40,448 bases of DNA. Origin: Elusimicrobiota bacterium. Lineage in GTDB: Bacteria > Elusimicrobiota > Elusimicrobia > UBA1565. Below, piece by piece: positions 3,103-32,477 of this stretch (its first letter is position 1; each line of letters opens with the position of its first letter). Where the stretch lies: NCBI GenBank assembly GCA_016218495.1, contig JACRDU010000072.1:1-40448 (forward strand). The letters run 5' to 3'. A program made the translations under genes and the position numbers. Under the pieces are notes generated by a model. That model saw only the letters and a program-made list of their open reading frames with translations. It did not search any database and was not told the origin of the DNA.

Positions 3103-3109
3103 CCGAGTG

Positions 3110-6040
3110 ATGAAGGCCGCCCTCAACCGCGTCCTGGCCTTGGCCGTGGGGCTCACCACGGCCTTCCCCCCGTCGCTGTTCGCGCAGGTGGTCTCGGCGC
3201 CCGTGCGGGCCGGTAGCGTCGTCCAGGCCGTTCCGGCGCCTTTGGGCGCGCCCGCCCTGACCCCTTCGGCCGGAGCGTCCTTTTCCGCGCCGAATCTGGC
3301 CTCAGGCCTCCCGGCCGCCCCTTCCCTATTACCCTCTCCCGCCATCCAGGCTCCGTCCGCGGCCAAGGCCCTCCCCGCGGCCGTCGCCGCGGCCGGGATG
3401 CCTGTCGCCCGGACCGCCATCACCCCCGCCTCCGCGCGCGAAGGCCTGCGCACGGCGGTCAATGCGGTGGCGGGCGACGAGAAGGCGGGACGCGAGAAGC
3501 CGGGCCTCGCCGCCCTCGGCGCGGACGCCGAGGCCCCGCGTTCCGATGCTTCGGCCCAAGAGCAGAGCGCCTCGGCCGAGCGCTTCTTCAACCAGAAGGC
3601 CGGGATCCTCTTCGGCGTCTATGAGGCGGAGGACGTCTCCCCGCTGGCGGCCTTCGAGGCCGCCGCGGCGGGCAAGGGCCGCGGACGCAAGAAGGAGACC
3701 CCCCCGCCCCCGGACCCCAAGATCCCGGCGCGGACGCTGACGTTCAACGGGACCGAGTTCCCCTCGGTCGCCTTCCGTCCGGACCGTCCCGTCGGGCCCC
3801 TGATCGTCGCCGCCGTAAACGCCGCCAAGACCTCCATCGACATCGCCCTCTACGAGTTCCGCAACAAGGACATCCTGACGGCGCTGCGCGCGGCGAAGGC
3901 GCGCGGGGTGAAGATCCGGGTCATCGTGGACTTCGGGAACACCTTCCCGTCCAAGCGAGAGGGGTCGAGCTACTGGCCGAGCCGTTCCCTGGAGCTCCAG
4001 TCGATGATCTCGGAAGGCTTCGACGTCACCATCCTGCGCGGCACCGAGCGCTGGGGCATCGCCCACAACAAGCTGGCCGTCTTCGACGGCTCCTTCGGGC
4101 TCTTCGGCTCCTACAACTGGTCTTACACCTCGGAAGAGAACCACTTCGAGAACGCGGTCTTCACCGACGACAAGAGGCTCCTCGGCGGCATGCAGGCCTA
4201 CTGGGACTGGATGCGCTCGCTGAGCGTCCCGTTCGCCCAGGCGCGCGAGCGCGCCTGGCCGCAGACGGTCCCGACGCCCCCCAAGGACCCGGCCCCGTCC
4301 ATCGGGTTCAACGGCGAGGCCCTCCCGGCCTATGCGTTCTCTCCCGACGCATCCATCGAGGACCTGGTCGCGCGCGCGCTGGGCGCGGCCAAGAAGACCA
4401 TCGACGTCTCGATGTTCACGCTGACCTCGCCCAAGGTGGTGCGGGCCATCGCGGCCGCCAAGGCCCGGGGCGTGAAGGTCCGGGTGCTGGCCGACAAGTC
4501 CCAGTACGGCCAGGACTTCATGAAGAAGTTCGTCGACTGGCTGGCCTGGAACAAGATCCCGGTCAAGCTCCTGGCCGGTCCCAACGAGGACGGCCCGGAG
4601 TACGCCGAGAAGAACCATAACAAGCTGGCCATCCTCGACGGGCGCCTGGTCATGACCGGCTCGACGAACTGGACCAAGAGCGGCTTCGTGACGAACTTCG
4701 ACGGCCTCTATTTCCTGGACAACGCCAAGGACGCGGCGTCCTTCACGGCCTTCTTCGACGACATGTTCAAGGCCCGCGGCGCCGAGCGCGTCGTCCCGCC
4801 CGCCTCGGAGCCCGCGCTCCCCACCGACGAGGAGGTCCTCGAGGGCCTGCGCGGGACGCCGCAGCCCCTGCCTCCGGCCCCGACGTGGGGGCCGCTGCCC
4901 GAAGCGCGCCAGGTCGCCTTCAATGGGGAGACCCTGCCCTCGGCCGCCGTGCGGCCGGTCCACCCGGTCAAGGACATCCTGGTCAAGGCCATCGACGCCT
5001 CGAAGGAGTCCATCGAGCTGGCCCTCTACGAGTTCAACCTCGAGGACATCCTGGCGGCCCTCAAGCGCGCCAAAGCCCGGGGCGTGAAGGTCCGGGTCAT
5101 CATCGACTACAACAAGGCCTTCCCCAAGGGGCGCTACACCGACGGCGAGGAGCGCGAGCGCAACCCCAACGTCCAGGCCCTCTTCGACGAGTTCGACACG
5201 ACCGTCCTGCGCGGCACGCGCCTGCCCGGCATCATGCACAACAAGATCGCCATCTTCGACGGCAAGCTGGTCGAGTACGGCTCCTACAACTGGGCGTTCA
5301 CGGCCGAGAACCACCATTTCGAGCACATCCAGTTCACCGACGATGCCAAGCGCGTGGCCTTCTACCGCAAGGTCTGGGACTGGATGCGCACCTACTCCCA
5401 GCCGGAGAAGAAGGCCGAGGAGCACGACTGGGCCGGGGAGCGCCCGGCCGGGGCCCCGGTCGACGAGGACCTGGCCGTCGAGGTGAACGGCACGAAGCTC
5501 CCCCGGCAGGTCTTCTCGCCGCAGGGCTTGGTCGAGGACACGGTCGTCAAGGCCATCAGGGCGGCCAAGGTCTCGGTCGAGGTGGCGATGTTCAGCTTCT
5601 ACTCGGTGCGCATCGCCGAGGAGCTGCTGGCGGCCAAGCAGCGGGGCGTCAAGGTCAGCCTGGTGCTGGACCGGATGCAGTCGAAGCTCATGAAGCTCGA
5701 CGACTGGTTCGCCTACCACGACTTCGATGTGCGCATCCTGGGCGGCCCCAACCCCTACGACAACGTCTACTTCGAGAAGAACCACAACAAGTTCGTCCTG
5801 GTGGACGGCAAGGTCCTCGGCGCCGGCTCCTACAACTACACCTCCAACGCCGAGACGAACTCCTACGAGAACGTCAGCTTCACGTCCGACGCGGCCGACG
5901 TGGCGTTCTTCATGGCCTACTTCCGGATGCTCTTCGAGAACGGCTGGAAGCCGATGAAGCCCAAGGCCCCTCCGGAGGGCCTGCCCGCCGCCTCCGAGTT
6001 CTTCTCGCCCGAGCGCTTCGAAGAACTCGCCCGTCGATAA
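3110..6040 (+). CDS. Secreted protein with four phospholipase-D (HKD) domains
   Basis: 976 residues. A signal peptide (MKAALNRVLALAVGLTTAFP) is followed by an Ala/Pro-rich linker to about residue 205. Four PLD-like domains come next, each with H-x-K-x4-D: H319/K321/D326, H503/K505/D510, H710/K712/D717 and H892/K894/D899. Each is followed by a G-S-x-N-W/Y strand. All four domains keep H, K and D. Each begins with an FNG/VNG strand, and domains 1 and 3 resemble each other, as do 2 and 4. So a two-domain enzyme was duplicated. PLD enzymes need two HKD motifs per active site, so this chain may hold two. The substrate could be phospholipid, nucleic acid or another phosphodiester. The export signal favours an extracytoplasmic target. 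The start was chosen from the signal peptide and the -10 spacing. Confidence 0.9.
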   Translation: MKAALNRVLALAVGLTTAFPPSLFAQVVSAPVRAGSVVQAVPAPLGAPALTPSAGASFSAPNLASGLPAAPSLLPSPAIQAPSAAKALPAAVAAAGMPVARTAITPASAREGLRTAVNAVAGDEKAGREKPGLAALGADAEAPRSDASAQEQSASAERFFNQKAGILFGVYEAEDVSPLAAFEAAAAGKGRGRKKETPPPPDPKIPARTLTFNGTEFPSVAFRPDRPVGPLIVAAVNAAKTSIDIALYEFRNKDILTALRAAKARGVKIRVIVDFGNTFPSKREGSSYWPSRSLELQSMISEGFDVTILRGTERWGIAHNKLAVFDGSFGLFGSYNWSYTSEENHFENAVFTDDKRLLGGMQAYWDWMRSLSVPFAQARERAWPQTVPTPPKDPAPSIGFNGEALPAYAFSPDASIEDLVARALGAAKKTIDVSMFTLTSPKVVRAIAAAKARGVKVRVLADKSQYGQDFMKKFVDWLAWNKIPVKLLAGPNEDGPEYAEKNHNKLAILDGRLVMTGSTNWTKSGFVTNFDGLYFLDNAKDAASFTAFFDDMFKARGAERVVPPASEPALPTDEEVLEGLRGTPQPLPPAPTWGPLPEARQVAFNGETLPSAAVRPVHPVKDILVKAIDASKESIELALYEFNLEDILAALKRAKARGVKVRVIIDYNKAFPKGRYTDGEERERNPNVQALFDEFDTTVLRGTRLPGIMHNKIAIFDGKLVEYGSYNWAFTAENHHFEHIQFTDDAKRVAFYRKVWDWMRTYSQPEKKAEEHDWAGERPAGAPVDEDLAVEVNGTKLPRQVFSPQGLVEDTVVKAIRAAKVSVEVAMFSFYSVRIAEELLAAKQRGVKVSLVLDRMQSKLMKLDDWFAYHDFDVRILGGPNPYDNVYFEKNHNKFVLVDGKVLGAGSYNYTSNAETNSYENVSFTSDAADVAFFMAYFRMLFENGWKPMKPKAPPEGLPAASEFFSPERFEELARR

Positions 6041-6061: not shown

Positions 6062-7192
6062 ATGTCCTGGCGGGCCCCGCTACTCCTCCCGGTCCTCTGC
6101 TCCGGTTTCTACTGGGTCCTGGTGACCGTGTGCCTGGCCTGGTTCCTGCGCCGCCGCGCGGCGCCCGCCTGGGCCAAGCCCCCCCGGGTCTCGCTGATAA
6201 AGCCGCTGTGCGGCGTGGAGCGCGGGCTCGAGGAGAACCTGGCCACGGCCCTGGCCCAGGACTACCCTGACTACGAGGTGGTCTTCTCCCTGCAAGACGA
6301 GGCCGACCCGGCGCGCGCGGTGGCCGAGCGGCTGCGGGCCCGCCGCCCCGACCTGGTGAAGGTGGTGGTCGACCCGGCCTGCGCGGGCCCCAACGGGCGC
6401 CTGTGCAACATCCTCACCGCCACCAAGCGCGCCGACGGGGAGGTGCTGGTCTACTCCGACTCCGACATGCACCTGGACCCCGGCTACCTGAGGGCCATAA
6501 CGGCCCCGCTGTCCGACGCGCAGGTGGGCGTGGCCTGCACCCTGTACCGCGCCTGGCGACCGCGGGGCTTCTTCGAGACCCTGGAACTCCTGTCCCTCAA
6601 CGCCGAGTTCGTGCCCTCGATGGTCTTCGCGACGGTCACCGGGGCCTCCGCGGCCTGCCCCGGCGCCTCCCAGGCCCTGCGCCGCGAGACCCTCGAGCGC
6701 ATCGGAGGGCTGGAGCCGATGGCCGATACCCTGGTCGAGGACTTCGAGCTGGGGACGGCGGTGCTGCGCGCCGGCCTGCGCATCGCCTTCGTCCCGCATG
6801 TGGCCCGCACCGGCATCGACCTGCGCTCGTGGCGGGATTGGTGGCGCCATCAGCTCTATTGGGACCAGAACACGCGCGCGGCCAGCCCCGCGGGATTCTT
6901 CTTCACCTGGCTCGTGCGCGGGGTCCCCTTCGCCGTGCTCTATGCGCTGCTGGGGGGCTTCTGGGGCGCGGGCATCGTCACCGTGACCCTGGCCGCGCGC
7001 CTGGCCACCGGGGCGGCCAACGCGTGGCTGCTGGAGGATGCCGACGGAATGCGTGCCCTGTGGGCGCTGCCGCTGCGCGACCTGGCGGGCCTGGCCACCT
7101 GGTTCGCCGCCCTATCCGGCCGCACGGTCCATTGGAAGGGCCGGGTCTTCACTCTGGTCGGCAACCGCATGGTCGAGGCGTCCAAGCCGTGA
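6062..7192 (+). CDS. hpnI-like: Membrane glycosyltransferase, HpnI / GT21-like
   Basis: 376 residues. The N-terminal membrane segment is about residues 5-28. A GT-A catalytic domain follows, with the family marks SLIKPLCGVERGLEENL, a DxD in VYSDSDMHLDP and the catalytic-base region ADTLVEDFELG. The usual QxxRW-type motif appears as RHQLYWDQNTR. C-terminal membrane segments follow (about 285-320 and 340-355). Known relatives are ceramide glucosyltransferase and HpnI, which adds N-acetylglucosamine to bacteriohopanetetrol. It probably transfers a sugar from a nucleotide donor to a membrane lipid on the cytoplasmic face. The stop overlaps the next gene (GTGA). No hopanoid cyclase or other hpn gene lies in the window, so the lipid acceptor is unknown. 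Confidence 0.85.
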   Translation: MSWRAPLLLPVLCSGFYWVLVTVCLAWFLRRRAAPAWAKPPRVSLIKPLCGVERGLEENLATALAQDYPDYEVVFSLQDEADPARAVAERLRARRPDLVKVVVDPACAGPNGRLCNILTATKRADGEVLVYSDSDMHLDPGYLRAITAPLSDAQVGVACTLYRAWRPRGFFETLELLSLNAEFVPSMVFATVTGASAACPGASQALRRETLERIGGLEPMADTLVEDFELGTAVLRAGLRIAFVPHVARTGIDLRSWRDWWRHQLYWDQNTRAASPAGFFFTWLVRGVPFAVLYALLGGFWGAGIVTVTLAARLATGAANAWLLEDADGMRALWALPLRDLAGLATWFAALSGRTVHWKGRVFTLVGNRMVEASKP

Positions 7193-8025
7193 CGCGCCTC
7201 GTCGTCACGGCCGACGATTTCGGGCTGAGCCCGCAGGTGAACGCGGCCGTGGCGCGGGCCCGGCGCGACGGCATCCTCACCGCGGCCAGCCTCATGGTGG
7301 GGGCACCCGCCTGGAAGGAGGCCGTGGCGCTGGCCGAGGCCGACCCGGGCCTGCGGGTCGGGCTGCACCTCGTGCTCGTACACGGGCGGCCCGTGCTGGA
7401 CCCCGGGCTCATCCCCGACCTGGTCGACGCGCGCGGCCGCCTGCGCACGGACATGGCCGCCGTCGGCGCCGCGATCTTCTTCTCCGCGCGCGTGCGCCGG
7501 CAGGCCGAGGCCGAGTGCCGCGCGCAGTTCGAGCGCTTCGCCGGGACGGGGCTGGCGTTCGACCATGTGAACGGGCACAACCACTTCCACATCCACCCCA
7601 CCGTCGCCGGCATCGTCGCGCGGCTGGCGCGGGAGTTCCGCGTCCCCGCCGTGCGGGTCCCGGCCCAGCGCTGGAGCGGCCTCCCGGCCGCCCAGGCCGG
7701 CACGGCCCTGCTGATGGCTCCCTGGACCGCCGCCGCCCGCCTGCGCTTCCACGCCGCGGGACTGGCCACCAACGACGAGCTGCACGGCCTCTTCGAGACG
7801 GGCGCGATGGACGAAACGGCCTGGCTGCGCGTCGCCGGCCGCCTGCGGCGCGGCGTCACCGAGGTGTACTGCCACCCCGCCACGGAATCCTCCGGAGTGC
7901 TGGCCGACGAGATGCCCGGCTACCGCCATGCCGACGAGCTGGCGGCCCTGCTCTCCCCGCGCGTGCGCGAGGCGCTGGAACGGGCCGGGGTCCGGCGGAT
8001 GGCGTTCGCGGAGGCGGTGCGTTGA
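7189..8025 (+). CDS. hpnK-like: YdjC / HpnK-like polysaccharide deacetylase family protein
   Basis: 278 residues from a GTG that overlaps the previous stop (GTGA). Motifs of the YdjC family are intact: TADDFGLSPQVN at the N-terminus (metal-binding Asp), the His cluster in FDHVNGHNHFHIHPTV (about residues 124-139) and EVYCHPATES (about 223-232). These enzymes are metal-dependent carbohydrate deacetylases. HpnK de-N-acetylates the GlcNAc added by HpnI. Position directly behind an HpnI-like transferase makes the same two-step reaction likely: transfer of an N-acetyl sugar, then removal of the acetyl group to give a positively charged amino-sugar lipid. The exact substrate is inferred. Confidence 0.87.
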   Translation: MTRLVVTADDFGLSPQVNAAVARARRDGILTAASLMVGAPAWKEAVALAEADPGLRVGLHLVLVHGRPVLDPGLIPDLVDARGRLRTDMAAVGAAIFFSARVRRQAEAECRAQFERFAGTGLAFDHVNGHNHFHIHPTVAGIVARLAREFRVPAVRVPAQRWSGLPAAQAGTALLMAPWTAAARLRFHAAGLATNDELHGLFETGAMDETAWLRVAGRLRRGVTEVYCHPATESSGVLADEMPGYRHADELAALLSPRVREALERAGVRRMAFAEAVR

Positions 8026-8396
8026 TCCGGGCGACCGTCGTGCTGTGGGCGGCGATGCTGGCCTCGAGCCTCTCGAACGTCCTCACCTCGCGCGGGATGC
8101 GGGCGCGCGGCCCGCTCGAGGACTATTCCCCCGGGCATCTGCTGCGCTGGGGCTGGGGGTCGGTCACCGACAAGTGGGTGCTGCTCGGCCTCGTCGCCGG
8201 CGCGGCGAACTTCCTGCTCTGGCTCGTGGTGCTGTCGTGGGCGGACGTCAGTTGGGCCCTGCCGATGAACGCCGTCGAATACGCCGTGACGGCCCTGATG
8301 GCCATGTGGTTCCTCAAGGAGCGCGTCGCGCCGCGGCGCTGGGCCGCCATCGGGCTCATCGTGGCCGGGGTGGGCTGCGTGATGGGGTCCTGGTGA
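8022..8396 (+). CDS. Half-size SMR/EamA transporter subunit A (ArnE/ArnF-like)
   Basis: 124 residues. The TTG start overlaps the previous stop (TTGA). It keeps the first membrane helix intact, whereas the next ATG (8055) would cut into it. Four membrane helices are evident, with the signature ANFLLWLVVLSWADVSWALP and a C-terminal WAAIGLIVAGVGC helix. Size and motifs fit the small multidrug resistance/EamA half-transporter family, which includes ArnE and ArnF, the heterodimer thought to flip undecaprenyl-phosphate-aminoarabinose. It is clearly paralogous to the next gene, so the two probably form a heterodimer that moves the glycolipid made by the upstream enzymes. Confidence 0.8.
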   Translation: MIRATVVLWAAMLASSLSNVLTSRGMRARGPLEDYSPGHLLRWGWGSVTDKWVLLGLVAGAANFLLWLVVLSWADVSWALPMNAVEYAVTALMAMWFLKERVAPRRWAAIGLIVAGVGCVMGSW

Positions 8397-8794
8397 GGCT
8401 GCGCTCGCTGTCGGTGATGCTGGTCGCCATCCTCGCGGCGGGGGCGGGCAACCTCTGCCTCTCGAAGGGCATGCAGCTCGTAGGATCGCTCGAGGTGTTC
8501 ACCCCCTCGGCCGTCTGGGCCTTCTTCTCGGCGGCCGTGACCAACCCCTGGGTCATCGGGGGCATCGCCCTCGAGCTGGCCAATTTCCTGCTCTGGCTGG
8601 CCGTCCTGTCCTGGTCGCAGGTGAGCTGGGCCCTGCCGCTCAACGCCCTCGAGTACATCCTGGTGGCCCTGGCGGCGCGCCTGTTCCTCGGGGAGGTGGT
8701 CGGGCCCGTGCGCTGGGTCGGCATCGGCCTGATCGCCGCGGGGGTCGTCCTCCTCTACGCCTCATGGGAACATCCCGAGACGGACGCCGCCTAG
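8393..8794 (+). CDS. Half-size SMR/EamA transporter subunit B (ArnE/ArnF-like)
   Basis: 133 residues from a GTG overlapping the previous stop (GTGA). It has four membrane helices and shares the block ANFLLWLAVLSWSQVSWALP and the ending RWVGIGLIAAGVVLLYASW with subunit A, so the pair arose by tandem duplication. Neighbouring lipid glycosyltransferase and deacetylase genes point to lipid-linked sugar translocation rather than drug efflux. This is inference from context and from the ArnE/ArnF precedent. A short hydrophilic tail (EHPETDAA) overlaps the start of the MFS gene by 31 bases. Confidence 0.8.
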   Translation: MRLRSLSVMLVAILAAGAGNLCLSKGMQLVGSLEVFTPSAVWAFFSAAVTNPWVIGGIALELANFLLWLAVLSWSQVSWALPLNALEYILVALAARLFLGEVVGPVRWVGIGLIAAGVVLLYASWEHPETDAA

Positions 8795-9930
8795 TCCTCT
8801 TCGGCGTCGCCTGCATGGTCGTGTCGTCGTTGAGCGACAGCGTCCGCGCGCCGGCCCTGCCGCTGTTGGCCCAACGCTACGGGGAAGGCTACGGGCGCCT
8901 GTCCGCCTTCCTGACTGCCGGCAGCCTGGGCTCCCTGGCCTTCAACCTGCTGGCGATGCGCTCGCTCTCCCACCTCAGCGACCGGGCCGTCGTGGCGCTG
9001 TCGGCGCTGCTGCAGGGCGGGGCGATGCTGGCGGCGGCGGCGGCCCCCGGCCTGGGGACCTTGGCGGCCGCCGGCTTTGTCTGGGGGGCGGGCAACGTCG
9101 GGCTGGGCCTGTGCGCGAACCTGCTCGTGGTGCGCGGCAGCGCCCCCGGCGCGCGGGCCCGGACGCTGAGCGCCCTGCACGTATTCTACGGCCTGAGCTG
9201 CGTGCTCCCGCCGCTCTATGTCGGCTGGGCCCACCGCGCCGGCTGGAGCGTCGGGCCGCTGCTGGCGGCGCCGGCCCTCCTGCCGCTGCTCCTGGCCGGC
9301 GCCGCGCGGGGCCTCGGCTCGGCACATTCGGCCGAGGAGGGGCCCGCGCCTTCCTTCGCGGGCGCCCCCTGGGGGTTGGGCGGCGTCATCGCCCTCTATG
9401 TGCTCGGGGAGGTCATGACCTCGATGTGGATGGTCGCGGTCCTGACCAGCGGCGGGGCGTCCCTCGACGCGGCCGGGAAGGTCCTCAGCGGCTTCTTCCT
9501 GGCCCTGGCGGCGGGGCGGGCGGCCACCGCCGCCTTCGCGCGTCCGGCGGCCGAGCGCGCGCTGGTGGCCTTCGGCCTGGGCGCCGGCGCCGTCGCCGCG
9601 GCGGCGGGGGCGTTCGGGCGTCCGTGGGGCTTCGCCGCGGCGGGAGCCTGCTTCGGGCCGGTATTCCCGCTGCTCATGACGCGCCTGTCGGTGGAGCACC
9701 CGCGCGGCCTGCGCGAGGCGATGGCCTTCGTCTACGCGGCGATGGTCGTCGCGCTGGCCCTCGGGCACCAGGCCATGGGCTGGCTGGCCGAACGGGCCTC
9801 GCCGCGCTCGGCGGCCCTGTTCCCCGTGCTCTGCGTCGCGGCCGCCCTGGGGCTCTGGCTGGCGGTCTCCCGGGAAAAAGAAGGGCGCGGGGGGGATCCC
9901 CCCGCGCCTTCGCCCGCCGGCTCCAGCTAG
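8764..9930 (+). CDS. MFS transporter
   Basis: 388 residues, about 12 hydrophobic helices in two halves separated by a short hydrophilic stretch (GSAHSAEEGPAPS, about residues 182-194). The N-terminal half has the pattern SLSDSVRAPALPLLAQRYGEG, typical of MFS helix 1 and its following loop. The C-terminal half contains HPRGLREAMAFVYA. The overall style is that of sugar or drug MFS carriers, and no substrate can be named. Its start lies within the end of SMR subunit B, so it belongs to the same operon and may export or import a precursor of the glycolipid. Its last codons contain a terminator that works for the convergent gene on the minus strand. Confidence 0.82.
   Translation: MGTSRDGRRLVLFGVACMVVSSLSDSVRAPALPLLAQRYGEGYGRLSAFLTAGSLGSLAFNLLAMRSLSHLSDRAVVALSALLQGGAMLAAAAAPGLGTLAAAGFVWGAGNVGLGLCANLLVVRGSAPGARARTLSALHVFYGLSCVLPPLYVGWAHRAGWSVGPLLAAPALLPLLLAGAARGLGSAHSAEEGPAPSFAGAPWGLGGVIALYVLGEVMTSMWMVAVLTSGGASLDAAGKVLSGFFLALAAGRAATAAFARPAAERALVAFGLGAGAVAAAAGAFGRPWGFAAAGACFGPVFPLLMTRLSVEHPRGLREAMAFVYAAMVVALALGHQAMGWLAERASPRSAALFPVLCVAAALGLWLAVSREKEGRGGDPPAPSPAGSS
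9875..9908 (-). terminator. Intrinsic terminator inside the 3' end of the MFS gene
   Basis: Read on the minus strand, an 11-bp GC stem (GGCGCGGGGGG / CCCCCCGCGCC, 9884-9908) with a 3-base loop is followed by CTTCTTTTT. It lies 18 bases past the stop of the epimerase gene. It is the clearest Rho-independent terminator in the window and is embedded in convergent coding sequence, where it encodes the EKEGRGGDPPAP part of the MFS tail. Confidence 0.8.
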
Positions 9931-10856
9931 GCCAGCGCCGGCTTCTTCTGGGCCTGGAGGTTCTCCTTGGCCCACCGGATGTAGCTGTCGGCCCCTTCGT
10001 CGAACGAGACCGTGGGCTTCCAGCCCAGTTCCTTCAGGGCCTTGCGGTTGGAGACGACCTTCGGGGCCAGGTCCCCGGCCCGCGCGTCGACGTAGCGGAT
10101 GTCGGCGTTCGGGAACGAGGCTTTGACCTTGTCGGCGATCTGCCGGACGGTGGTGCGCTCGGAGCCCTCGAGGTTGTAGGTCTGGTTCCTCGCGGCGTCC
10201 TGCAGCGCGGCGACGTTGCCGAGCGCCAGGTCCTCGACGTAGACGAAGCTGCGCCAGGCCGAACCGTCGCCCTGGATGACGATGGGCTGCCCGCGCATCG
10301 CGCGGTTGACGAAGGTCGCCAGCACCGTGCCCATGCGCGCGCGCGGCCCGTAGGGGATGCCGTAGCGCAGGATGGTGGTGTCGAGCTTGTAGAGCTTCGA
10401 GTAGGAGTGGCAGAGCATCTCGGCCGCCACCTTCGAGGCCGTGTAGACGTGGTTGACGGAGTTGACGCTCAACGGCGTCTCCTCGTCGACCTCGCTCTGC
10501 TCGGTCATCCCGTAGACCCAGGCGGTCGAGGCCAGGATGACGCGCTTGGCGCCGGTCCGGCGGGCGGCCTCCAGCACGTTGGCCACCGCCATCACGTTGG
10601 TCTGCACCGACTCGACGGGGATGTGGTAGACGTCGTTGACGTTGGCCACCGCGGCCAGCAGGTAGATGGCGTCGTATTCGCCGGCCAGCGCCAGCGTGGT
10701 CCGGCCCGGGTCGAGGATGTCGGCCACGGTGTGACGCACGTCCGGGCGGTGTGGGGACATGATGTCGAAGACCGTGACGTCGTGGCCCGCGTCCGCGAGC
10801 TTGTCCACGACGTGCGAGCCGATGAAGCCGGAGCCGCCGATGACGCCTACCTTCAT
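9927..10856 (-). CDS. NAD-dependent sugar epimerase/dehydratase (extended SDR)
   Basis: 309 residues. The glycine motif GGSGFIGS sits at residues 7-14, an Asp at the end of beta-2 (VFD, residue 31) fits NAD preference, and the catalytic residues are S110/T111, Y138 and K142 (YTASK). A substrate-side RYGIPYGPR motif follows. This is the UDP-glucose 4-epimerase-like extended SDR group. Such enzymes epimerise, dehydrate or decarboxylate nucleotide sugars. The start overlaps the stop of the DegT-type aminotransferase (ATGA), so the two probably act on the same nucleotide sugar, one adding an amino group. An intrinsic terminator follows the stop. Confidence 0.88.
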   Translation of the reverse strand: MKVGVIGGSGFIGSHVVDKLADAGHDVTVFDIMSPHRPDVRHTVADILDPGRTTLALAGEYDAIYLLAAVANVNDVYHIPVESVQTNVMAVANVLEAARRTGAKRVILASTAWVYGMTEQSEVDEETPLSVNSVNHVYTASKVAAEMLCHSYSKLYKLDTTILRYGIPYGPRARMGTVLATFVNRAMRGQPIVIQGDGSAWRSFVYVEDLALGNVAALQDAARNQTYNLEGSERTTVRQIADKVKASFPNADIRYVDARAGDLAPKVVSNRKALKELGWKPTVSFDEGADSYIRWAKENLQAQKKPALA

Positions 10857-11986
10857 GATGCCACCTTCCTGGCAGCCAGGACCTGCTCGAGACCGGTCAC
10901 GACCTGCGCGACCTGCTCGTCGCTCATGCCGGGGAAGACCGGAAGGCAGACGTGGCGGGCGCAGACGTCGTCGGCGACGGGGAACTTCCCTCGCGCGTAT
11001 TCCTGGAAAACGGGCTGCTTGTGCAGCGGGGTGTCGTAGACCTCGCCGGAGAGCGAGACCGCGAAGCGCTCCTTGAGCTCCTTCTTGACGGACGCGCGGT
11101 CGAGGCCGCGGTCGAGGAGGGCGACGACCTTGTAGTAGTTGCAGACCGAGCCGGCCGGCGGGGTCAGCAGGGTCAGGCCCTCGAGGCCCTTGAGGCGGCG
11201 CTGGTACTCGGAGGCGACGCGGTTGCGCTCGCGCATGAACTCGGCCAGGCGCTTGAGCTGGAACACCCCGACGGCGGCGTGCAGTTCGCTCATGCGCCAG
11301 TTGTAGCCCATGCGCACGTGGAAGTTGGTCAGGAAGCCTTCCTTGCCCTGGTCGCGGTACTGCAGGGCCTGCGCGGCGATGTCATCGGAGTCCGTGACGA
11401 TCATCCCGCCCTCGGCCGAGGTGATGACCTTGGTCGGGTAGAACGAGAACGAGGCGGCGGCCCCGAAGGTGCCGGCCATGCGCCCGTTGAGCGACGACCC
11501 GTGGGCGTGGGCGGCGTCCTCGAAGAAGAACAGCCCCTTGGCCTTGCAGAACTCGGCGATCTTGGGGGTCTCGGGGCTGACCAGGCCGGCGATGTGCACC
11601 ATCACGACGCCGGCGGTCTTGGGCGTCACGGCCTTCTTGACGCTCTCGAGGGTCAAGGCCAGGGTGCGGGCGTCGATGTCGGCGAATCGGGGCACGCCGC
11701 CGGCGTGGACGACGCCGGCCGCGGTGGCGAAGAAGGTGTTGGTCGGGACGACGACCTCCTTGCCGGCCACGCCCAGCACGCGCAGCGGGATCTCGATGGA
11801 GCTGGTCCCGGAGTTGACCGCGACGGCGTGCTTGGTCCCCACCAGCTTGGCGAAGTCGGCCTCGAACTCCTTGCCGTTCTTGCCCAGGGTCAGGGCGCCG
11901 GTCTTGAGGGACTCGTCGATGCGGGCCAGGATGGCCTTGCGGTCCTCTTCGGGGATGACGATCTTGGCGGCGGGGATGGGGTTCAT
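10853..11986 (-). CDS. DegT/DnrJ/EryC1/StrS-family aminotransferase
   Basis: 377 residues, a full-length PLP enzyme of the sugar aminotransferase family. Visible marks are the phosphate-binding NSGTSSIEIPLRVLG (about 58-72), the cofactor Asp in FEDAAHAHG (D157) and the Schiff-base Lys in SFYPTKVITSAEGG (K186). These enzymes transfer an amino group from Glu or Gln to a keto-sugar nucleotide. It is the first gene of a two-gene unit with the epimerase. Together they could supply an amino or N-acyl amino sugar. The HpnI/HpnK-like operon ends just across the convergent terminator, which makes a shared product possible but unproven. Confidence 0.9.
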   Translation of the reverse strand: MNPIPAAKIVIPEEDRKAILARIDESLKTGALTLGKNGKEFEADFAKLVGTKHAVAVNSGTSSIEIPLRVLGVAGKEVVVPTNTFFATAAGVVHAGGVPRFADIDARTLALTLESVKKAVTPKTAGVVMVHIAGLVSPETPKIAEFCKAKGLFFFEDAAHAHGSSLNGRMAGTFGAAASFSFYPTKVITSAEGGMIVTDSDDIAAQALQYRDQGKEGFLTNFHVRMGYNWRMSELHAAVGVFQLKRLAEFMRERNRVASEYQRRLKGLEGLTLLTPPAGSVCNYYKVVALLDRGLDRASVKKELKERFAVSLSGEVYDTPLHKQPVFQEYARGKFPVADDVCARHVCLPVFPGMSDEQVAQVVTGLEQVLAARKVAS

Positions 11987-16936: not shown

Positions 16937-16945
16937 ATCCTAACA
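16937..16945 (-). promoter_or_regulatory. Extended -10 promoter (TGTTAGGAT), leaderless spacing
   Basis: TAGGAT preceded by TGT, 6 bases before the GTG of the His-rich gene. It overlaps the TAG stop codon of the upstream membrane-protein gene (16940-16942). It would drive the metal-efflux operon separately from the genes upstream. Confidence 0.5.
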
Positions 16946-17347
16946 GAAATGCAGCCCGCGCACCAGCACGTAGAGGCGTTCGAAAATGAGTGCCGCGCAC
17001 AGCCAGCCGGGGGCGAAATCGACCCGGATGAGGCCGTGGACGGCCCAGTTGGAACCGCCGTAATCCCATGGGCAGCGCCCCGTCAGACGGCGGAGGAGCA
17101 GGCCCGTCAGGTACTCGACGGCATAGATGCACAGCACATAGACGGCCCCGCGCCCCCACCAAGGCCAGGCCCCCACGGCCGGCCGGAGCAGGTCCAGGAA
17201 GGGCACGACCAGGGCGTAGATGGGGAACATCCAGACATAGCTCTGTCCCTTCAGCCTCCAGCCCTCGCGCACGGCGGGGGCCGTCGCCGCGGTGAAGGCC
17301 ACCTCGAGGGCCACTCCGACGCAGGCGATGATGAGGGCGGCGGTCAC
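16940..17347 (-). CDS. Small membrane protein, CmpB-like (putative ABC transporter permease family, PF06541)
   Basis: 135 residues from a GTG that overlaps the stop of the MEMO gene (GTGA). Three to four membrane helices are visible: VTAALIIACVGVALEVAFTA, SYVWMFPIYALVVPFLDLL, GAVYVLCIYAVEYLTGLLL and a last one near the C-terminus. The motif CPWDYGGSNWAVHGLIRVDF followed by APGWLCAALIFERLY resembles the family labelled putative ABC-transporter type IV or CmpB, whose function is not established. Coupling to a MEMO-family gene suggests co-expression. No partner ATPase is present. Confidence 0.7.
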   Translation of the reverse strand: MTAALIIACVGVALEVAFTAATAPAVREGWRLKGQSYVWMFPIYALVVPFLDLLRPAVGAWPWWGRGAVYVLCIYAVEYLTGLLLRRLTGRCPWDYGGSNWAVHGLIRVDFAPGWLCAALIFERLYVLVRGLHFC

Positions 17348-18570
17348 CCGAAAACCATGGATGCGAAGCTGACCGTGCCGCCCGCCGGGTCTTCGGCATG
17401 GCCCCAGTGCAGGAGGCGGCCCGAGGTCTTCGGGAACAGCGCCTTGTGCAGGCGCGAGAACGCGTAGAGGGCGCTGACCCCGCAGACGCGGCGGGCGTTG
17501 CCGTCCGCCTGGACCGAAGCGAGCCAGCCGGCGGGGTCCCGGGAGGACAGCAGGGCCAGCCCTTCCCGGTCCTGAGCCTCGACGCGGGCCAGCCACGGTC
17601 CGTCGACCGGCTTGTCGTCGCCGAAGCGCGGGCCGATGTGGGCCAGGTCGGCGCCGCATACGAGCAGGAGGCCGTCCTTGAGGGGTCCGAGGAGCTCGGC
17701 GAGCGCGTCCAGGGCCGACTCGGTCCGCGAGCCTGCGTCGGCACGGTCGAGGTCGCAGGAGGAGGCCAGGAGCGGCAGGATGGCCGTGCTGCCGCCGAGG
17801 CGGCGCCCGGCATACGCCAGCCATACGGCCTGGAACTCGGCCGAATGCTCGGAGCGGTGGACGAGCTCGTCGGCCCGGAGGTCGAAGGGCGCGGCCTCCT
17901 CCAGGTCCGCGGCCAGCCTTTCAGCCAGCGCCAGGGTCCCGAACGGGGTCTCGAAGCCCTTGGCCGCAAGGACCAAGGGCGTTCCCGGCGTGCGGTGGGC
18001 CACCCCTATGACGACGCAGAGGGGGGGCAGCGACGAACCCAGGAGGTCCCTGAACGCCCAGGCGTAGGCCGTCCCCCCGCGGTGGAAATCGATGTGGGGG
18101 GCAACTATCCCGGTCGGGCGGGCAGAGGAGCCGGGCGCGGGTGCGGGTCCGGGTCCGCCGGGACGCGTGAAGAACGCCCCCATCTCGGCCTCGAGCTCGC
18201 GCGGCTCCGCGGCATAGGAACGGCCGGCCAGCGCGGCGGGGCGTATGCGCGCCATTCGGAAGGCCGAGGCGGCGGCCCGGACCCGGCGGCGGAAACGCGG
18301 GGAGTCGAGCATCAGGGCCTCGTCGAGGCTCCGGGCGAAGGCCGCCACGCCGTCCGCGGACGCGGGGTGGCCGTGGCGGGCCAGGTCGGCCGCGACCTGG
18401 GCGGCGGTGCGCAGGCCGTCGAGGCGGGCGGCGACCTGCGCCTCGGCGGCGCTCAGCAGCACGAGCCTGTCGGTCCAGCCCTCCGGGTCGCGCAGGGCCA
18501 GCCAGGTGCGGCCGTCCTGGGCCAGCGGGAAGGCGTCGAGCGGGCGGAGCGCGGGCAGCTTCGCGGCCAC
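17344..18570 (-). CDS. MEMO-family protein (AmmeMemoRadiSam system protein B) with N-terminal extension
   Basis: 408 residues from a GTG. The C-terminal 290 residues carry the MEMO marks: GIVAPHIDFHRGG (about 154-166), HRSEHSAEFQAVWL (about 234-247), GADLAHIGPRFGD and RVCGVSALYAF. MEMO proteins share the fold of class III extradiol dioxygenases and sit in a conserved but poorly understood set with AMMECR1 and a radical-SAM enzyme. Neither partner is in this window. The first 100 residues resemble a small winged-helix PqqD-like domain (AQVAARLDGLRTAAQVAADL). A CATAAT box ends 6 bases before the GTG. The gene is divergent from mgtE with only 35 bases between start codons. Confidence 0.85.
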   Translation of the reverse strand: MAAKLPALRPLDAFPLAQDGRTWLALRDPEGWTDRLVLLSAAEAQVAARLDGLRTAAQVAADLARHGHPASADGVAAFARSLDEALMLDSPRFRRRVRAAASAFRMARIRPAALAGRSYAAEPRELEAEMGAFFTRPGGPGPAPAPGSSARPTGIVAPHIDFHRGGTAYAWAFRDLLGSSLPPLCVVIGVAHRTPGTPLVLAAKGFETPFGTLALAERLAADLEEAAPFDLRADELVHRSEHSAEFQAVWLAYAGRRLGGSTAILPLLASSCDLDRADAGSRTESALDALAELLGPLKDGLLLVCGADLAHIGPRFGDDKPVDGPWLARVEAQDREGLALLSSRDPAGWLASVQADGNARRVCGVSALYAFSRLHKALFPKTSGRLLHWGHAEDPAGGTVSFASMVFG

Positions 18571-18576
18571 GGGACG

Positions 18577-18582
18577 ATTATG
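18577..18582 (-). promoter_or_regulatory. -10 box CATAAT of the MEMO gene, leaderless spacing
   Basis: Six bases separate CATAAT from the GTG at 18570. Its -35 would have to lie at or inside the start of the divergent mgtE gene. Confidence 0.5.
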
Positions 18583-18593
18583 GCGTTTTTTCC

Positions 18594-18599
18594 TATGAT
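18594..18599 (+). promoter_or_regulatory. -10 box TATGAT of mgtE, leaderless spacing
   Basis: Six bases separate TATGAT from the ATG at 18606. No room exists for a Mg2+ riboswitch in the leader. Confidence 0.6.
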
Positions 18600-18605
18600 G
18601 TCGGC

Positions 18606-19973
18606 ATGCGGCTCATACAGATGTACCTCTCCGACCTCAAAGAGCTGCTCGCCGCCAAGGAGTTCGGCTCGGTCAAGACGGCGCTCAAGGAACTCAGCCC
18701 CGTCGACCTCGTCGACGGCTGGGGCCACTTCACGCGCGAGGAGCGCGGGGTGCTCTTCCGCCTGATGCCCCGACAGAGGGCCCTGCAGCTCTTCGAGGAG
18801 CTCGACCCTGTGCACGAGGAGGAGCTCTTGACCGCGCTGAAGGACCAGGACGTCGAGGACCTGGTGGCCGACCTCGACCCCGCCGAGACCGGGCGCCTGC
18901 TGCGAGAGCTCCCCAAGAAGACCGTCCGCCAGCTCGAGGCCATCGTCAAGAAGAGCTCGGCGGCCGGCCGCGCTGCGGAGGTGGCGTCCTACCCGGAGGA
19001 CTCGGTCGGCTCGCTGATGCGCACGCGCTACGTGACGCTGTCGGCGCGGCGGACCTGCCGCGAGGCCCTCTCGCGCATCTCGGTCTCGACGCGCCTGCGC
19101 TTCATCGAGAATACCTTCCTTGAGACCCTGTTCGTCCTCGACGAAGCGGAGCGCCTCGTCGGCACGGTGACCCTCAAGAAGCTGGTCGTGGCCCCCGCCG
19201 ATATGCCCGTCTCGGAGCTGATGGAGTCGAACCCGCGGCTGCTGCTGCCCGATGCGGACCAGGAGGAGGGCGCCAAGCTCTTTCAGCACTACCACCTTAG
19301 CTGCTGCGCCGTCGTGGACCGCGAGCGTCGCCTGCTCGGCGTCGTCATCGATCGCGATATGGACGAGGTGACGGCGGAAGAGACCGAGGAGGACATCGCG
19401 AAGATGGCCGGCACGCGGGCCGAGGATATGGACGCGACGACGGCCCTCGAATCGGCGCGCCTGAGGCTCCCCTGGCTGGCGGTGACCTGCGTCGGGCAGC
19501 TCCTCGTCTCTCTGGTCATCCACCGCTTCGAGGCGACGCTCTCGAAGCTGGTCGCGCTGGCCACCTTCATGCCGCTCATCGCCGCGATGGGCGGCAACGT
19601 GGGCTCGCAGTCGGCCATCATGGTCGTGCGCTCGCTGGCCGCCGGGGCGCTGGGCCCGAAGGACCGCGCGCGCACGGTGCTGCGCGACCTGCGCGTGGGG
19701 GGGCTCCTGGGTCTGCTCTACAGTGCGGCGATGGTCCTGGCCGCGCACGCCTTCTACGGGAACCGCTTCGGGTGGGACTTCTCGTGGGTCATCGGCCTGG
19801 GCACCCTGACGTCGATGACCATCGCGGCGACGCTGGGGGCCTTCGTGCCGTTCCTCTTCGAGAAGCTTGGCATCGACCCGGCCACCGCGACTGGGCCTCT
19901 GGTGACGACCCTGACCGACCTCATCAGCACGGCCAGCTATCTCGGCTTCGCGACCCTGCTGCTGATGCGCTAG
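18606..19973 (+). CDS. mgtE: Magnesium transporter MgtE
   Basis: 455 residues, full length. Order: an N-terminal superhelical MgtE_N domain (about 10-125) with acidic LDPVHEEELLTAL repeats, two CBS domains (about 130-255) that sense Mg2+ in the cytoplasm, a plug helix, then five membrane helices from about 285. Pore signatures PLIAAMGGNVGSQSAI and DPATATGPLVTTLTDLI are intact. It is a Mg2+ channel that closes when cytoplasmic Mg2+ is high. In some bacteria mgtE lies behind an M-box riboswitch. Here the start codon is only 7 bases from the -10 box, so any control must be at initiation or on the protein. Confidence 0.95.
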   Translation: MRLIQMYLSDLKELLAAKEFGSVKTALKELSPVDLVDGWGHFTREERGVLFRLMPRQRALQLFEELDPVHEEELLTALKDQDVEDLVADLDPAETGRLLRELPKKTVRQLEAIVKKSSAAGRAAEVASYPEDSVGSLMRTRYVTLSARRTCREALSRISVSTRLRFIENTFLETLFVLDEAERLVGTVTLKKLVVAPADMPVSELMESNPRLLLPDADQEEGAKLFQHYHLSCCAVVDRERRLLGVVIDRDMDEVTAEETEEDIAKMAGTRAEDMDATTALESARLRLPWLAVTCVGQLLVSLVIHRFEATLSKLVALATFMPLIAAMGGNVGSQSAIMVVRSLAAGALGPKDRARTVLRDLRVGGLLGLLYSAAMVLAAHAFYGNRFGWDFSWVIGLGTLTSMTIAATLGAFVPFLFEKLGIDPATATGPLVTTLTDLISTASYLGFATLLLMR

Positions 19974-29151: not shown

Positions 29152-31200
29152 ATGAGAATCCCTCTTCTCCTCGCCTTCCTTCTCGCTTCCTTACCGGCCT
29201 TCGCCGCCATGCCCAAGGCGGAGGTGGAGCGCCGCGTCCAAGACCTCCTCGGCAAGATGACCCTGGAAGAGAAGCTGGGGCAGCTCCAGCAGCTCGACGG
29301 CTCGGCCGCGGGCGACCACTCGCCCGAGCTCCTCGAGCTGGCGCGCAAGGGCCGCCTAGGCTCGACCTTGAACGTGCGCGGGGCCAAGCGCGTCAACGAG
29401 CTCCAGCGCGCCGCCCTGCAGTCGCGCCTCAAGATCCCCGTCCTCTTCGCCTTCGACGTCATCCACGGCTACCGGACCATCTTCCCGATCCCCTTGGGCG
29501 AGGCGGCGGCCTGGGACCCGGCGGGGGCGGAGCGCACGGCCGCCATCGCCGCGGCCGAGGCCGCGGCGGCGGGCGTCCGGTGGACCTTCGCCCCGATGGT
29601 GGACATCGCGCGCGACCCGCGCTGGGGCCGCGTGGCCGAGGGAGCGGGCGAGGACGTCCACCTGGGGTCGGTCCTGGCGGCGGCCAGGGTCAGGGGCTTC
29701 CAGGGCGCCGACCCCTCGGCTCCCGACAAGGTCCTGGCCTGCGCGAAGCACTGGGTGGGTTACGGAGCCGCCGAAGGAGGCCGCGACTACAACACCACCG
29801 ACATCTCCGAGGAGCGCCTGCGCGGCGTCTACCTGCCGCCCTTCAAGGCCGCGGTGGACGCGGGCGTGGAGACCTTCATGAGCGCCTTCAACGACTTGAA
29901 CGGCGTGCCGTCGTCGGCCAACCGCCGGACCCTGACCGGCATCCTGCGCGGCGAATGGGGCTTCGACGGCCTGGTGGTCAGCGACTACACCTCTGTGGCC
30001 GAGCTGGTCAACCACGGCTACGCCGCCGACGGGGGCGACGCGGCGCGCAAGGCGCTGTCGGCCGGGGTCGACATGGAGATGGTCAGCCGGCTCTACAACG
30101 AGCACGGGAAGACCCTGGCCTCCGCCGAGGTGGACGAGGCCGTGCGCCGCGTCCTGCGCGTGAAGCTGCGGGCGGGCATCTTCGAGCGTCCCTTCGCCGA
30201 CGAGAAGGCCGAGACGGTCCTGCTCTCCGCCCCCTTCCGCGATGAAGCCCGCCTCTCGGCAGCCCGCTCGATGGTCCTCTTGGAGAACCGCGGCGTGCTC
30301 CCGTTCTCCAAGGACATGGAGTCCCTCGCCGTCCTGGGAGCCTTGGCCGACTCGAGGGCCGACCTGCTCGGTTCCTGGACCGGCGACGGCCGTGCGCAGG
30401 ACGCCGCGACCATCCGCGAAGCCTTGAGGGAGGCCCTGCCGAAGACCCGCCTGACGGATTCGCTCGACGACGCGGCCGCGGCGGTCGTGGTCGTCGGGGA
30501 GACCTTCGATGTGAGCGGCGAGGCCGCCTCGCGCAGCGACATCGGCCTGCCGTCCGGCCAGCTGGAGCTCGTGCGCAGGGCGCATGAGTCCGGCAAGCCC
30601 TACGCCGTCGTCCTCATCACCGGCCGGCCGCTGGCCGTCCCCTGGCTGGCGGAGAACGCCCGGGCCCTGCTCCTGGCCTGGCAGCCCGGCACCGAGGGCG
30701 CCCGCGCCGTCGCCGACATCCTCTTGGGCGACGCCGTCCCCGGGGGGAAGCTCCCCGCCAGCTTCCCGCGCTCCGTGGGCCAGGTGCCGGTCTACTACGC
30801 GCACAAGAACTCCGGGCGGCCCTACGACGCCGCCAGCAAGTACACGACCAAGTACCTGGACCTGCCGAACACGCCGCTGTATCCGTTCGGCTACGGGCTG
30901 AGCTACTCCTCCTTCGAGCTCTCCGGCCTCGCGGCCTCGGACGCGGCGGTCTCGGTCGATGTGAAGAACACGGGCGCGCGCGCCGGCGACGAGGTGGTGC
31001 AGGTCTATGTCCGGGGTCCGGCGGGGGGCGCCCTCACCCGGCCGGTGCGCGAGCTCCAGGGCTTCCAGCGCGTCACCCTCGCCCCGGGAGAGAAGCGCCG
31101 CCTGGACTTCGCGCTGCGCCCCGACGCGCCGGGCCCGTGGCAGGTCTTCGTGGGGACGAGCTCCGTGGGCGGCCTGACGGGCTCCTTCGTGCACAAGTGA
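29152..31200 (+). CDS. bglX-like: GH3 beta-glucosidase, exported
   Basis: 682 residues with a signal peptide (MRIPLLLAFLLASLPAFAA). The GH3 barrel shows LGQLQQLDG, FDVIHGYRTIFPIPLG, DIARDPRWGR, AKHWVGYGAAEGGRDYN and the catalytic nucleophile Asp278 in GFDGLVVSDYTS. A GH3 C-terminal sandwich domain (about 370-560) and a fibronectin-III-like domain (about 595-680) follow. The layout matches periplasmic BglX, which removes terminal beta-linked glucose. Its stop overlaps the start of a GH144-like gene (GTGA). If that partner is an endo-beta-1,2-glucanase, this enzyme would finish the sophoro-oligosaccharides. Confidence 0.93.
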   Translation: MRIPLLLAFLLASLPAFAAMPKAEVERRVQDLLGKMTLEEKLGQLQQLDGSAAGDHSPELLELARKGRLGSTLNVRGAKRVNELQRAALQSRLKIPVLFAFDVIHGYRTIFPIPLGEAAAWDPAGAERTAAIAAAEAAAAGVRWTFAPMVDIARDPRWGRVAEGAGEDVHLGSVLAAARVRGFQGADPSAPDKVLACAKHWVGYGAAEGGRDYNTTDISEERLRGVYLPPFKAAVDAGVETFMSAFNDLNGVPSSANRRTLTGILRGEWGFDGLVVSDYTSVAELVNHGYAADGGDAARKALSAGVDMEMVSRLYNEHGKTLASAEVDEAVRRVLRVKLRAGIFERPFADEKAETVLLSAPFRDEARLSAARSMVLLENRGVLPFSKDMESLAVLGALADSRADLLGSWTGDGRAQDAATIREALREALPKTRLTDSLDDAAAAVVVVGETFDVSGEAASRSDIGLPSGQLELVRRAHESGKPYAVVLITGRPLAVPWLAENARALLLAWQPGTEGARAVADILLGDAVPGGKLPASFPRSVGQVPVYYAHKNSGRPYDAASKYTTKYLDLPNTPLYPFGYGLSYSSFELSGLAASDAAVSVDVKNTGARAGDEVVQVYVRGPAGGALTRPVRELQGFQRVTLAPGEKRRLDFALRPDAPGPWQVFVGTSSVGGLTGSFVHK

Positions 31201-32432
31201 GGGCGCTGCTAGCCCTCCTCCTCCTCGCCTCGCCCGCCGCGGCGGGGCTCTCCGCGCCGGACGAGGCCTTCCTGGAGGAGCTCTCGCGCCGTTCCTTCCG
31301 CTACTTCTGGGACCATGCGGACCCGCAGACCGGCCTGGTCCTCGACCGGGCGCGCGCCGACGGCTCGGGCCCCGACGCGGAACACCGGCATGTGACCAGC
31401 GCGGCGACGACGGGCTTCGGCCTGAGCGCGCTGTGCATCGGGGCCGAGCGCGGCTGGGTGACCCGTCCCGCCGCGCTGGCCCGCGCCCTCAAGACCCTGC
31501 GCTTCCTGGCGCGCAAGGCCCCGCGCGAGCGCGGCTGGTTCTACCACTGGATGGACGGCCGCGACGGCAAGCGGGTCTGGAACAGCGAGCTCTCCTCCAT
31601 CGACACCGCCCTGCTGCTGGCCGGGGTGCTGACGGCGAAGGGCTGCTTCAAGGACAAGGAGGTGACGCGCCTGGCCGATTCCATCTACGGGGCGGTGGAC
31701 TTCCCGTGGATGCTGGCCGGGGACGCGGGGCTCCTCTCGATGGGCTGGTATCCCGACAAGGGCTTCATCCCCAGCCGCTGGGACACCTACAGCGAGGGGC
31801 CGCTGCTCTACATCCTGGGCGTTGCGGCGAAGAAGGGCCTGCCGCCTGCTGCATGGAAATCCTGGAAGCGCGACTGGATGACCTACGCCGGCATCCGCTA
31901 CCTCAATCCCGGCACCCCGCTCTTCACCCACCAGTACCCGCAGGCCTGGGCGGACCTGCGAGGGCGCAAGGACGAAGACGGTACGGACTACTTCGAGAAC
32001 TCGGTGCTGGCCACGCGCGCCCACAAGCGCTTCTGCCTCGACAACGGCTACGCCGAGGACCTCTGGGGCGTGACGGCCTCCGACGGCCCGAAGGGCTATG
32101 TGGCCTGGGGCGGCCCGCCCAAGCACCCCGACATCGACGGGACGGTGGTGCCGGCGGCGGCGGGCGGGTCCTTGATGTTCGCTCCGGGAATAACGGTGCC
32201 CGTCCTCGAGGCGATGAAAGAGCGCTTCGGCGCCCGGGTCTGGGGGCCCTACGGCTTCGTCGACGCCTTCCACCCCGCCACGGGCTGGACGGGGAAGGAC
32301 GTGCTCGGCATCGACGTGGGCATCACGTTGCTCAGCACGGAGAACCTGCGCTCGGGAGCCGTCTGGCGCTGGTTCATGGCCAATCCCGAGGTCCCGGCCG
32401 CGCTCGACGCGATGGGCGTGAAGAAGGACTAG
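31197..32432 (+). CDS. Glycoamylase-like / GH144-type glucanase, exported
   Basis: 411 residues from a GTG overlapping the GH3 stop. A short signal peptide (RALLALLLLASPAAAGLS) is followed by an alpha/alpha-barrel-like protein with FLEELSRRSFRYFWDHADPQ, VTSAATTGFGLSALCIGAERG, GWFYHWMDGRDGKRVWNSEL and YSEGPLLYILG. This is the Glycoamylase domain family (PF10091), whose characterised members are GH144 endo-beta-1,2-glucanases. Position behind a GH3 enzyme supports beta-glucan breakdown in the periplasm or outside. The beta-1,2 specificity is inferred from the family. It is translationally coupled to the GH3 gene. Confidence 0.85.
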   Translation: MRALLALLLLASPAAAGLSAPDEAFLEELSRRSFRYFWDHADPQTGLVLDRARADGSGPDAEHRHVTSAATTGFGLSALCIGAERGWVTRPAALARALKTLRFLARKAPRERGWFYHWMDGRDGKRVWNSELSSIDTALLLAGVLTAKGCFKDKEVTRLADSIYGAVDFPWMLAGDAGLLSMGWYPDKGFIPSRWDTYSEGPLLYILGVAAKKGLPPAAWKSWKRDWMTYAGIRYLNPGTPLFTHQYPQAWADLRGRKDEDGTDYFENSVLATRAHKRFCLDNGYAEDLWGVTASDGPKGYVAWGGPPKHPDIDGTVVPAAAGGSLMFAPGITVPVLEAMKERFGARVWGPYGFVDAFHPATGWTGKDVLGIDVGITLLSTENLRSGAVWRWFMANPEVPAALDAMGVKKD

Positions 32433-32477
32433 CGTCCGCCCGGGCGCGTGTCCAGCCAGACGGCCGACAAAGCCTCC

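Follow-up and report, generated by a model that had tools for sequence, protein, structure and literature searches.

The window analyzed here is positions 1 to 40,448 (forward strand) of contig JACRDU010000072.1 of the Elusimicrobiota bacterium assembly GCA_016218495.1. Positions 6062 to 9930 of the window hold an operon of five overlapping genes, and two further genes on the opposite strand converge with it. We propose that this gene module makes a free-amine glycolipid and flips it across the membrane, and that the lipid is most likely a hopanoid, the bacterial equivalent of cholesterol; in the genome of the window it would be of the bacteriohopanepolyol-derived glucosamine type. On the sequence evidence presented below, we put the probability of this reading at slightly above one half. 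The genes are as follows:

6062–7192, forward strand: GT21-like membrane glycosyltransferase, in a sister clade of HpnI (Pfam Glyco_transf_21, TIGR03472 and tree)
7189–8025, forward strand: HpnK-family (YdjC) sugar deacetylase, with a GTG start and GTGA overlap (TIGR03473)
8022–8396, forward strand: small multidrug resistance (SMR) family subunit 1 (SMR1), ArnE-like, with a TTG start and TTGA overlap
8393–8794, forward strand: SMR subunit 2 (SMR2), ArnE-like, with a GTG start and GTGA overlap
8764–9930, forward strand: MFS transporter (Pfam MFS_1, 36.6 bits), overlapping SMR2 by 31 bases
9927–10856, reverse strand: epimerase-type NAD-dependent short-chain dehydrogenase/reductase (SDR), convergent with the operon and part of the conserved module
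10853–11986, reverse strand: DegT/ArnB-class pyridoxal phosphate-dependent aminotransferase, a conserved but optional partner of the module

An earlier note, made from the letters of the window, had described five overlapping open reading frames (ORFs) joined by GTGA, TTGA, GTGA and 31-base overlaps, and all of these coordinates were found to be as claimed. A codon-based gene caller recovered the genes of the operon, the sole difference being a later start of the MFS gene, at 8815. Because the dN/dS values of the six genes tested between the window and the congener G211 were 0.19 to 0.40, the ORFs of the operon are judged from sequence to be under purifying selection, and so to be expressed proteins and not chance frames. 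The overlap of SMR2 and the MFS gene is kept in both congeners, G211 and G273, at 31 to 34 bases. A promoter scan of the window gave no signal above chance. The MFS and SDR genes converge at 9927–9930, where their stop codons overlap in the palindromic CTAG; in loci L033 and L034 the convergent overlap is between SMR2 and the SDR gene and spans 46 bases.

The conservation of the module was evaluated using HpnK matches across 295 Elusimicrobiota genomes and a one-genome-per-species scan for HpnK relatives; these genome collections are samples, and several of the genomes are fragmented. It was found that the order glycosyltransferase, HpnK, SMR1, SMR2 is present in six Elusimicrobiota genomes of two families: the three genomes of the window's genus (G000, which is the genome of the window, G211 and G273), and G127, G237 and L033 (L033 belongs to genome G310, which from its matching contig number is apparently the assembly also listed as G301). 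The scan also found these four genes in one genome labelled Deltaproteobacteria, and in the phylum of that genome (here, the second phylum) adjacent SMR pairs are present in 5 of 46 genomes. The order is thus found in two phyla, whereas the earlier note had counted conservation in close relatives only as a refutation of its reading; the core of the module is these four genes. Four of the five second-phylum carriers are readable around the glycosyltransferase gene, and in these the core is followed on the same strand by the aminotransferase and SDR genes; in G345, the glycosyltransferase and HpnK genes are separated by two other ORFs. An HpnA-like SDR adjoins the module, or lies a few genes beyond it, in most second-phylum carriers but not in G343, and the one of these HpnA proteins that was scored gave 432.7 bits (cut-off 367.65). 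Locus L037 has the row of genes seen in the second phylum without the SMR genes.

In Elusimicrobiota, the SDR gene is linked to and convergent with the operon in all three genomes of the window's genus and in G127 and L033, and the aminotransferase gene is adjacent and convergent in G000, G127 and L033; a search for an aminotransferase ortholog in G211 and G237 found none. The MFS gene is present in G000, G211 and G273 only, and we therefore rejected it as part of the core. Of the five genes that the earlier note had joined in a single function, four thus form the core; the note overlooked the SDR and aminotransferase genes, and its inclusion of the MFS gene in that function was not borne out. 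Of the approximately 70 HpnK loci from Proteobacteria and other groups in the scan, the majority include an HpnI and lack the SMR pair, and in most a single gene would fit between HpnI and HpnK; we take this gene to be HpnJ. SMR relatives in six other Elusimicrobiota genomes (G165, G275, G085, G210, G278 and G292) were considered as additional modules and rejected as singletons among unrelated genes, and there were no SMR relatives on viral contigs.

The deacetylase scored 333.9 bits against TIGR03473, exceeding the cut-off of 232.6, and in a FastTree phylogeny with other YdjC proteins as the outgroup the module HpnKs nest inside the hopanoid HpnK clade. By these sequence comparisons the protein, which the earlier note had called HpnK-like, is a true member of the HpnK family.

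The first gene had been called HpnI-like, which holds only with reserve: its product belongs to a sister clade of HpnI and is not a canonical HpnI. The window glycosyltransferase scored 309.6 bits against the HpnI model TIGR03472, not reaching the cut-off of 310, and the other module glycosyltransferases scored 293 to 308 bits. A profile of the module glycosyltransferases gave 554 to 716 bits to complete module members compared to 157 to 244 bits to canonical HpnIs. In an IQ-TREE phylogeny, the module proteins form a clade (bootstrap 99) beside canonical HpnI (75 to 79) and not within it, and the two together split from most other paralogues at 100. The signature is also changed: the fourth motif is HQxYW(D/K)QNTR in all eight module glycosyltransferases (K for D in one) and HxxRWxRTxR in the aligned canonical HpnIs. 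The AlphaFold model (predicted local distance difference test score, pLDDT, 93.9) has a membrane GT-A fold that matches PcManGT and hyaluronan synthase, and the closest solved structure by sequence is a ceramide glucosyltransferase of family GT21.

Both small membrane proteins have the four-helix EmrE fold and the length (about 110 to 130 residues) of SMR proteins. Their best NCBIfam match is ArnE (32.0 bits for SMR1 and 30.9 for SMR2, not reaching the cut-off of 92), and the ArnF model gave 18.2 and 18.3 bits (cut-off 99, also not reached). When a profile of the SMR pair was compared to E. coli proteins, ArnE scored 36.7 bits, EmrE 11.3, Gdx 10.0, ArnF 7.1, MdtJ 5.7 and MdtI 5.1. No acidic residue was found in transmembrane helix 1 (TM1) of any of the 22 module SMR proteins, so that the equivalent of Glu14 of EmrE is absent; a glutamate in TM2 is conserved in all SMR2 proteins. 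On the profile scores and the missing TM1 glutamate, we rejected a drug or guanidinium exporter, a better match to which the earlier note had named as refuting its proposal. The single-chain AlphaFold model of SMR2 (pLDDT 88.7) matches EmrE and Gdx-Clo with TMt values of 0.73 to 0.77 and a probability of 1.00, the Foldseek E values being only 0.03 to 0.3. The window SMR1 has one lysine or arginine on the side of the N terminus, loop 2 and the C terminus (N+L2+C) versus nine on the L1+L3 side; across carriers, the counts per side are 7 to 10 versus 0 to 2 for SMR1 and 2 to 4 versus 1 to 4 for SMR2. SMRs of the ArnE/ArnF type are glycolipid flippases, often without the central glutamate, and most adjacent SMR pairs show opposite biases (PMC9574504). 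The conserved pair in the module is unusual because the lipid-type SMRs in the genome survey of that paper were all singletons. Taken together, the ArnE-like scores, the lack of a TM1 glutamate, the EmrE fold and the asymmetry in lysine and arginine between the subunits suggest a lipid flippase.

The SDR retains YxxxK; at the site that is acidic in dehydratases and decarboxylases, it reads STxWVY. A 4,6-dehydratase or decarboxylase is unlikely, given that no Asp or Glu follows STxWVY. The closest solved structure to the aminotransferase is perosamine synthetase, and ArnB is also among the near matches. The sequences of the two enzymes together suggest the formation of an amino-sugar nucleotide, and the aminotransferase may be an elaboration because it is missing in some carriers.

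The earlier note had found no hopanoid synthesis gene. This holds within the window and fails for the genome as a whole: the check for squalene-hopene cyclase (SHC) that the note had recommended located this gene on contig C87 at 31148–33049, directly followed by HpnH and then by HpnA, HpnG, farnesyl diphosphate synthase, Dxs and IspH (the last two named by eye from sequence). HpnA on C87 scored 356 bits, slightly below its cut-off, the called ORF being truncated at the start, and HpnG scored 76 bits, below its cut-off. The hint of a non-hopanoid lipid, which had been drawn from a lack of such genes, was therefore not upheld. HpnJ is absent at its cut-off from the genome of the window (best score 206 versus 577.6 bits), which also has no canonical HpnI, and the genus as a whole carries the module without either of them. 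HpnL is present elsewhere in G000, and the SMR pair was accordingly rejected as a replacement for it. SHC is present in each of the five module carriers among the Elusimicrobiota genomes searched. G127 and G237 keep HpnJ-HpnI-HpnL, and the HpnK of the module is their only HpnK. By hand count, HpnJ exceeds the cut-off in 34 of the genomes searched, and 31 of these encode an HpnK homologue away from the module; the exceptions are G127, G237 and G293 (86% complete). Most relatives in the order have HpnJ-HpnI-HpnL with a divergent HpnK beside it; this cluster adjoins type-II-secretion/pilin genes (loci L166, L167, L168, L170, L171, L172 and L173), and in most genomes the divergent HpnK falls below the TIGR03473 cut-off. 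No hopanoid studies dedicated to Elusimicrobiota were found in the open literature searched.

Other genes surround the module. A secreted protein with four phospholipase D-like domains (four PLDc_2; 3107–6040, forward strand) is encoded upstream, ending 21 bp before the operon, and has an equivalent in the same position in G211 (locus L115, 10634–13630); its gene may open the transcription unit in the window's genus. CmpB-like (PF06541), Memo-like (PF01875) and MgtE genes lie at 16940–19973; MgtE is near the module in congener loci L115 and L036, and the CmpB-like and Memo-like genes are also near it in L036. A GH3 enzyme, a putative glucoamylase and a BPD_transp_2-type ABC transporter are encoded at 29152–32432 and 36318–39984.

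From the gene families, their order and conservation, and the presence or absence of hopanoid genes, we infer the following pathway. In the cytoplasmic leaflet, the glycosyltransferase would take an N-acetylated amino sugar from a nucleotide donor and attach it to a hydroxyl group of a lipid; the sugar would be GlcNAc or a derivative modified by the SDR and aminotransferase. Deacetylation by HpnK would then expose the free amine, and SMR1 and SMR2, as an antiparallel heterodimer, would carry the product over to the outer leaflet. A hopanoid acceptor is likely, and in the genome of the window it would most likely be bacteriohopanepolyol produced by SHC, HpnH and HpnG. It is known that HpnI, HpnK and HpnJ act in turn to convert bacteriohopanetetrol (BHT) to BHT-GlcNAc, BHT-glucosamine and a cyclitol ether, and in one species lacking hpnJ BHT-glucosamine is reported as the sole product (PMC12583986). 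On this basis we propose a glucosamine-type hopanoid, which, because HpnJ is absent, should not be contracted to a cyclitol ether. A more detailed version, in which the SMR heterodimer is a dedicated inner-membrane flippase of an aminosugar hopanoid and the glycosyltransferase clade with the altered motif makes an undescribed hopanoid glycoside in two phyla, possibly bearing a 4-amino sugar that the linked SDR and aminotransferase supply, is doubtful.

Several observations weigh against a hopanoid product flipped by the SMR pair. The glycosyltransferase misses the HpnI cut-off across its clade (293 to 310 bits), and with the change of RW to YW in the fourth motif the acceptor or donor may differ. 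Canonical HpnI coexists with the module in G127 and G237, where the module enzyme may serve another task. G343 in the second phylum has the module, and SHC was not found in this genome, the completeness of which is not established; the module of G344 is a contig-end fragment that stops at SMR1. SMR2 is nearly neutral in lysine and arginine and not oppositely charged to SMR1. SHC is nearly universal in the order and present in 42 of 46 second-phylum genomes, so that co-occurrence is weak evidence and, in the second phylum, uninformative as a test of the hopanoid link.

The main alternative is that the module makes a free hexosamine linked to undecaprenyl phosphate, which is flipped by the SMRs and added to lipopolysaccharide, lipid A or another surface glycan. 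NaxD deacetylates GalNAc on undecaprenyl phosphate (PMC10927774), the functional set of the module equals that of Arn (a glycosyltransferase, a deacylase, ArnE/ArnF, an SDR and an ArnB-like aminotransferase), and, among known proteins, ArnE is closest to the SMRs; the canonical HpnI beside the module in G127 and G237, the altered motif and the case of G343 also keep this explanation alive. However, the module lacks an ArnT-like GT-C transferase, and its glycosyltransferase is GT21/HpnI-like and not ArnC-like. Characterized GT21 enzymes are known to act on uncharged lipid hydroxyls. With HpnA inside the operon in the second phylum and an HpnK of the hopanoid clade, we consider this alternative unlikely. 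A ceramide-like lipid or glycerolipid as the acceptor of the aminosugar, to be flipped by the SMRs, would fit both the GT21 ceramide glucosyltransferase that is the nearest solved structure and the departure from the HpnI motif; it is rather improbable in view of the HpnK clade, the HpnA linkage and the pattern of HpnK replacement. It is more improbable still that the glycosyltransferase and HpnK make ordinary BHT-glucosamine and that the SMR pair and MFS protein are unrelated neighboring exporters of drugs, guanidinium or polyamines: the SMR fold is common to EmrE and Gdx and the MFS gene is confined to one genus, but the SMR pair adjoins the glycosyltransferase and HpnK genes in both phyla, matches ArnE better than EmrE, Gdx or MdtI/MdtJ, and has no TM1 glutamate. 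We retain the hopanoid reading, which is favored by the placement of HpnK in the hopanoid clade, the sister relationship of the glycosyltransferase to HpnI, the SHC cluster, the HpnA linkage and the replacement of HpnK in G127 and G237.

Compared to the HpnI-HpnK-HpnJ branch of hopanoid synthesis, the module is alike in having an HpnK family member, a glycosyltransferase sister to HpnI, transfer followed by deacetylation, and SHC and HpnH in the genome; it differs in the YW motif and sub-cut-off score of the glycosyltransferase, the absence of HpnJ, and the addition of the SMR pair, SDR and aminotransferase. The Arn pathway of E. coli and Salmonella, which modifies lipid A with L-Ara4N, shares with it an SDR, a DegT aminotransferase, a glycosyltransferase, a deacylase and a pair of overlapping SMR genes of the ArnE type. 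In contrast to Arn, the module has a GT21/HpnI-like enzyme in place of ArnC, a YdjC deacetylase in place of ArnD, an SDR without the decarboxylase-type acid, and neither a formyltransferase nor ArnT; its SMRs score only 31 to 32 bits versus the ArnE cut-off of 92; relative to the E. coli operon, no homologues of ArnA, ArnC, ArnD or ArnT are present in the window operon, the genes of which belong to other families. The parallel that the earlier note had drawn with Arn, in which different enzyme families would carry out glycosyl transfer, deacylation and flipping by SMRs, is supported, and is strengthened by the SDR and the ArnB-like aminotransferase. The NaxD pathway (lipid A galactosamine) similarly deacetylates a lipid-linked N-acetylhexosamine before export, and is set apart, by description and not by sequence, in its acceptor lipid, glycosyltransferase family and genomic company. 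HpnL, which the genome of the window retains, and HpnN are hopanoid-associated membrane proteins and resemble the proposed SMRs in this respect; HpnN transports hopanoids to the outer membrane, and the functions of HpnA and HpnL are listed as not known (PMC12583986).

In searches of open papers on flippases and hopanoids, we found no account of how polar, glycosylated hopanoids cross the inner membrane. If our proposal is correct, hopanoids would gain a candidate for such a flipping step, and the module would provide a small, expressible candidate flippase pair together with a matching set of enzymes. A change in surface charge by the glycolipid is a possible consequence. The Arn arrangement of aminosugar formation, transfer, deacylation and SMR flipping would here be built from different enzyme families, which suggests that SMR pairs may be reusable lipid flippases.

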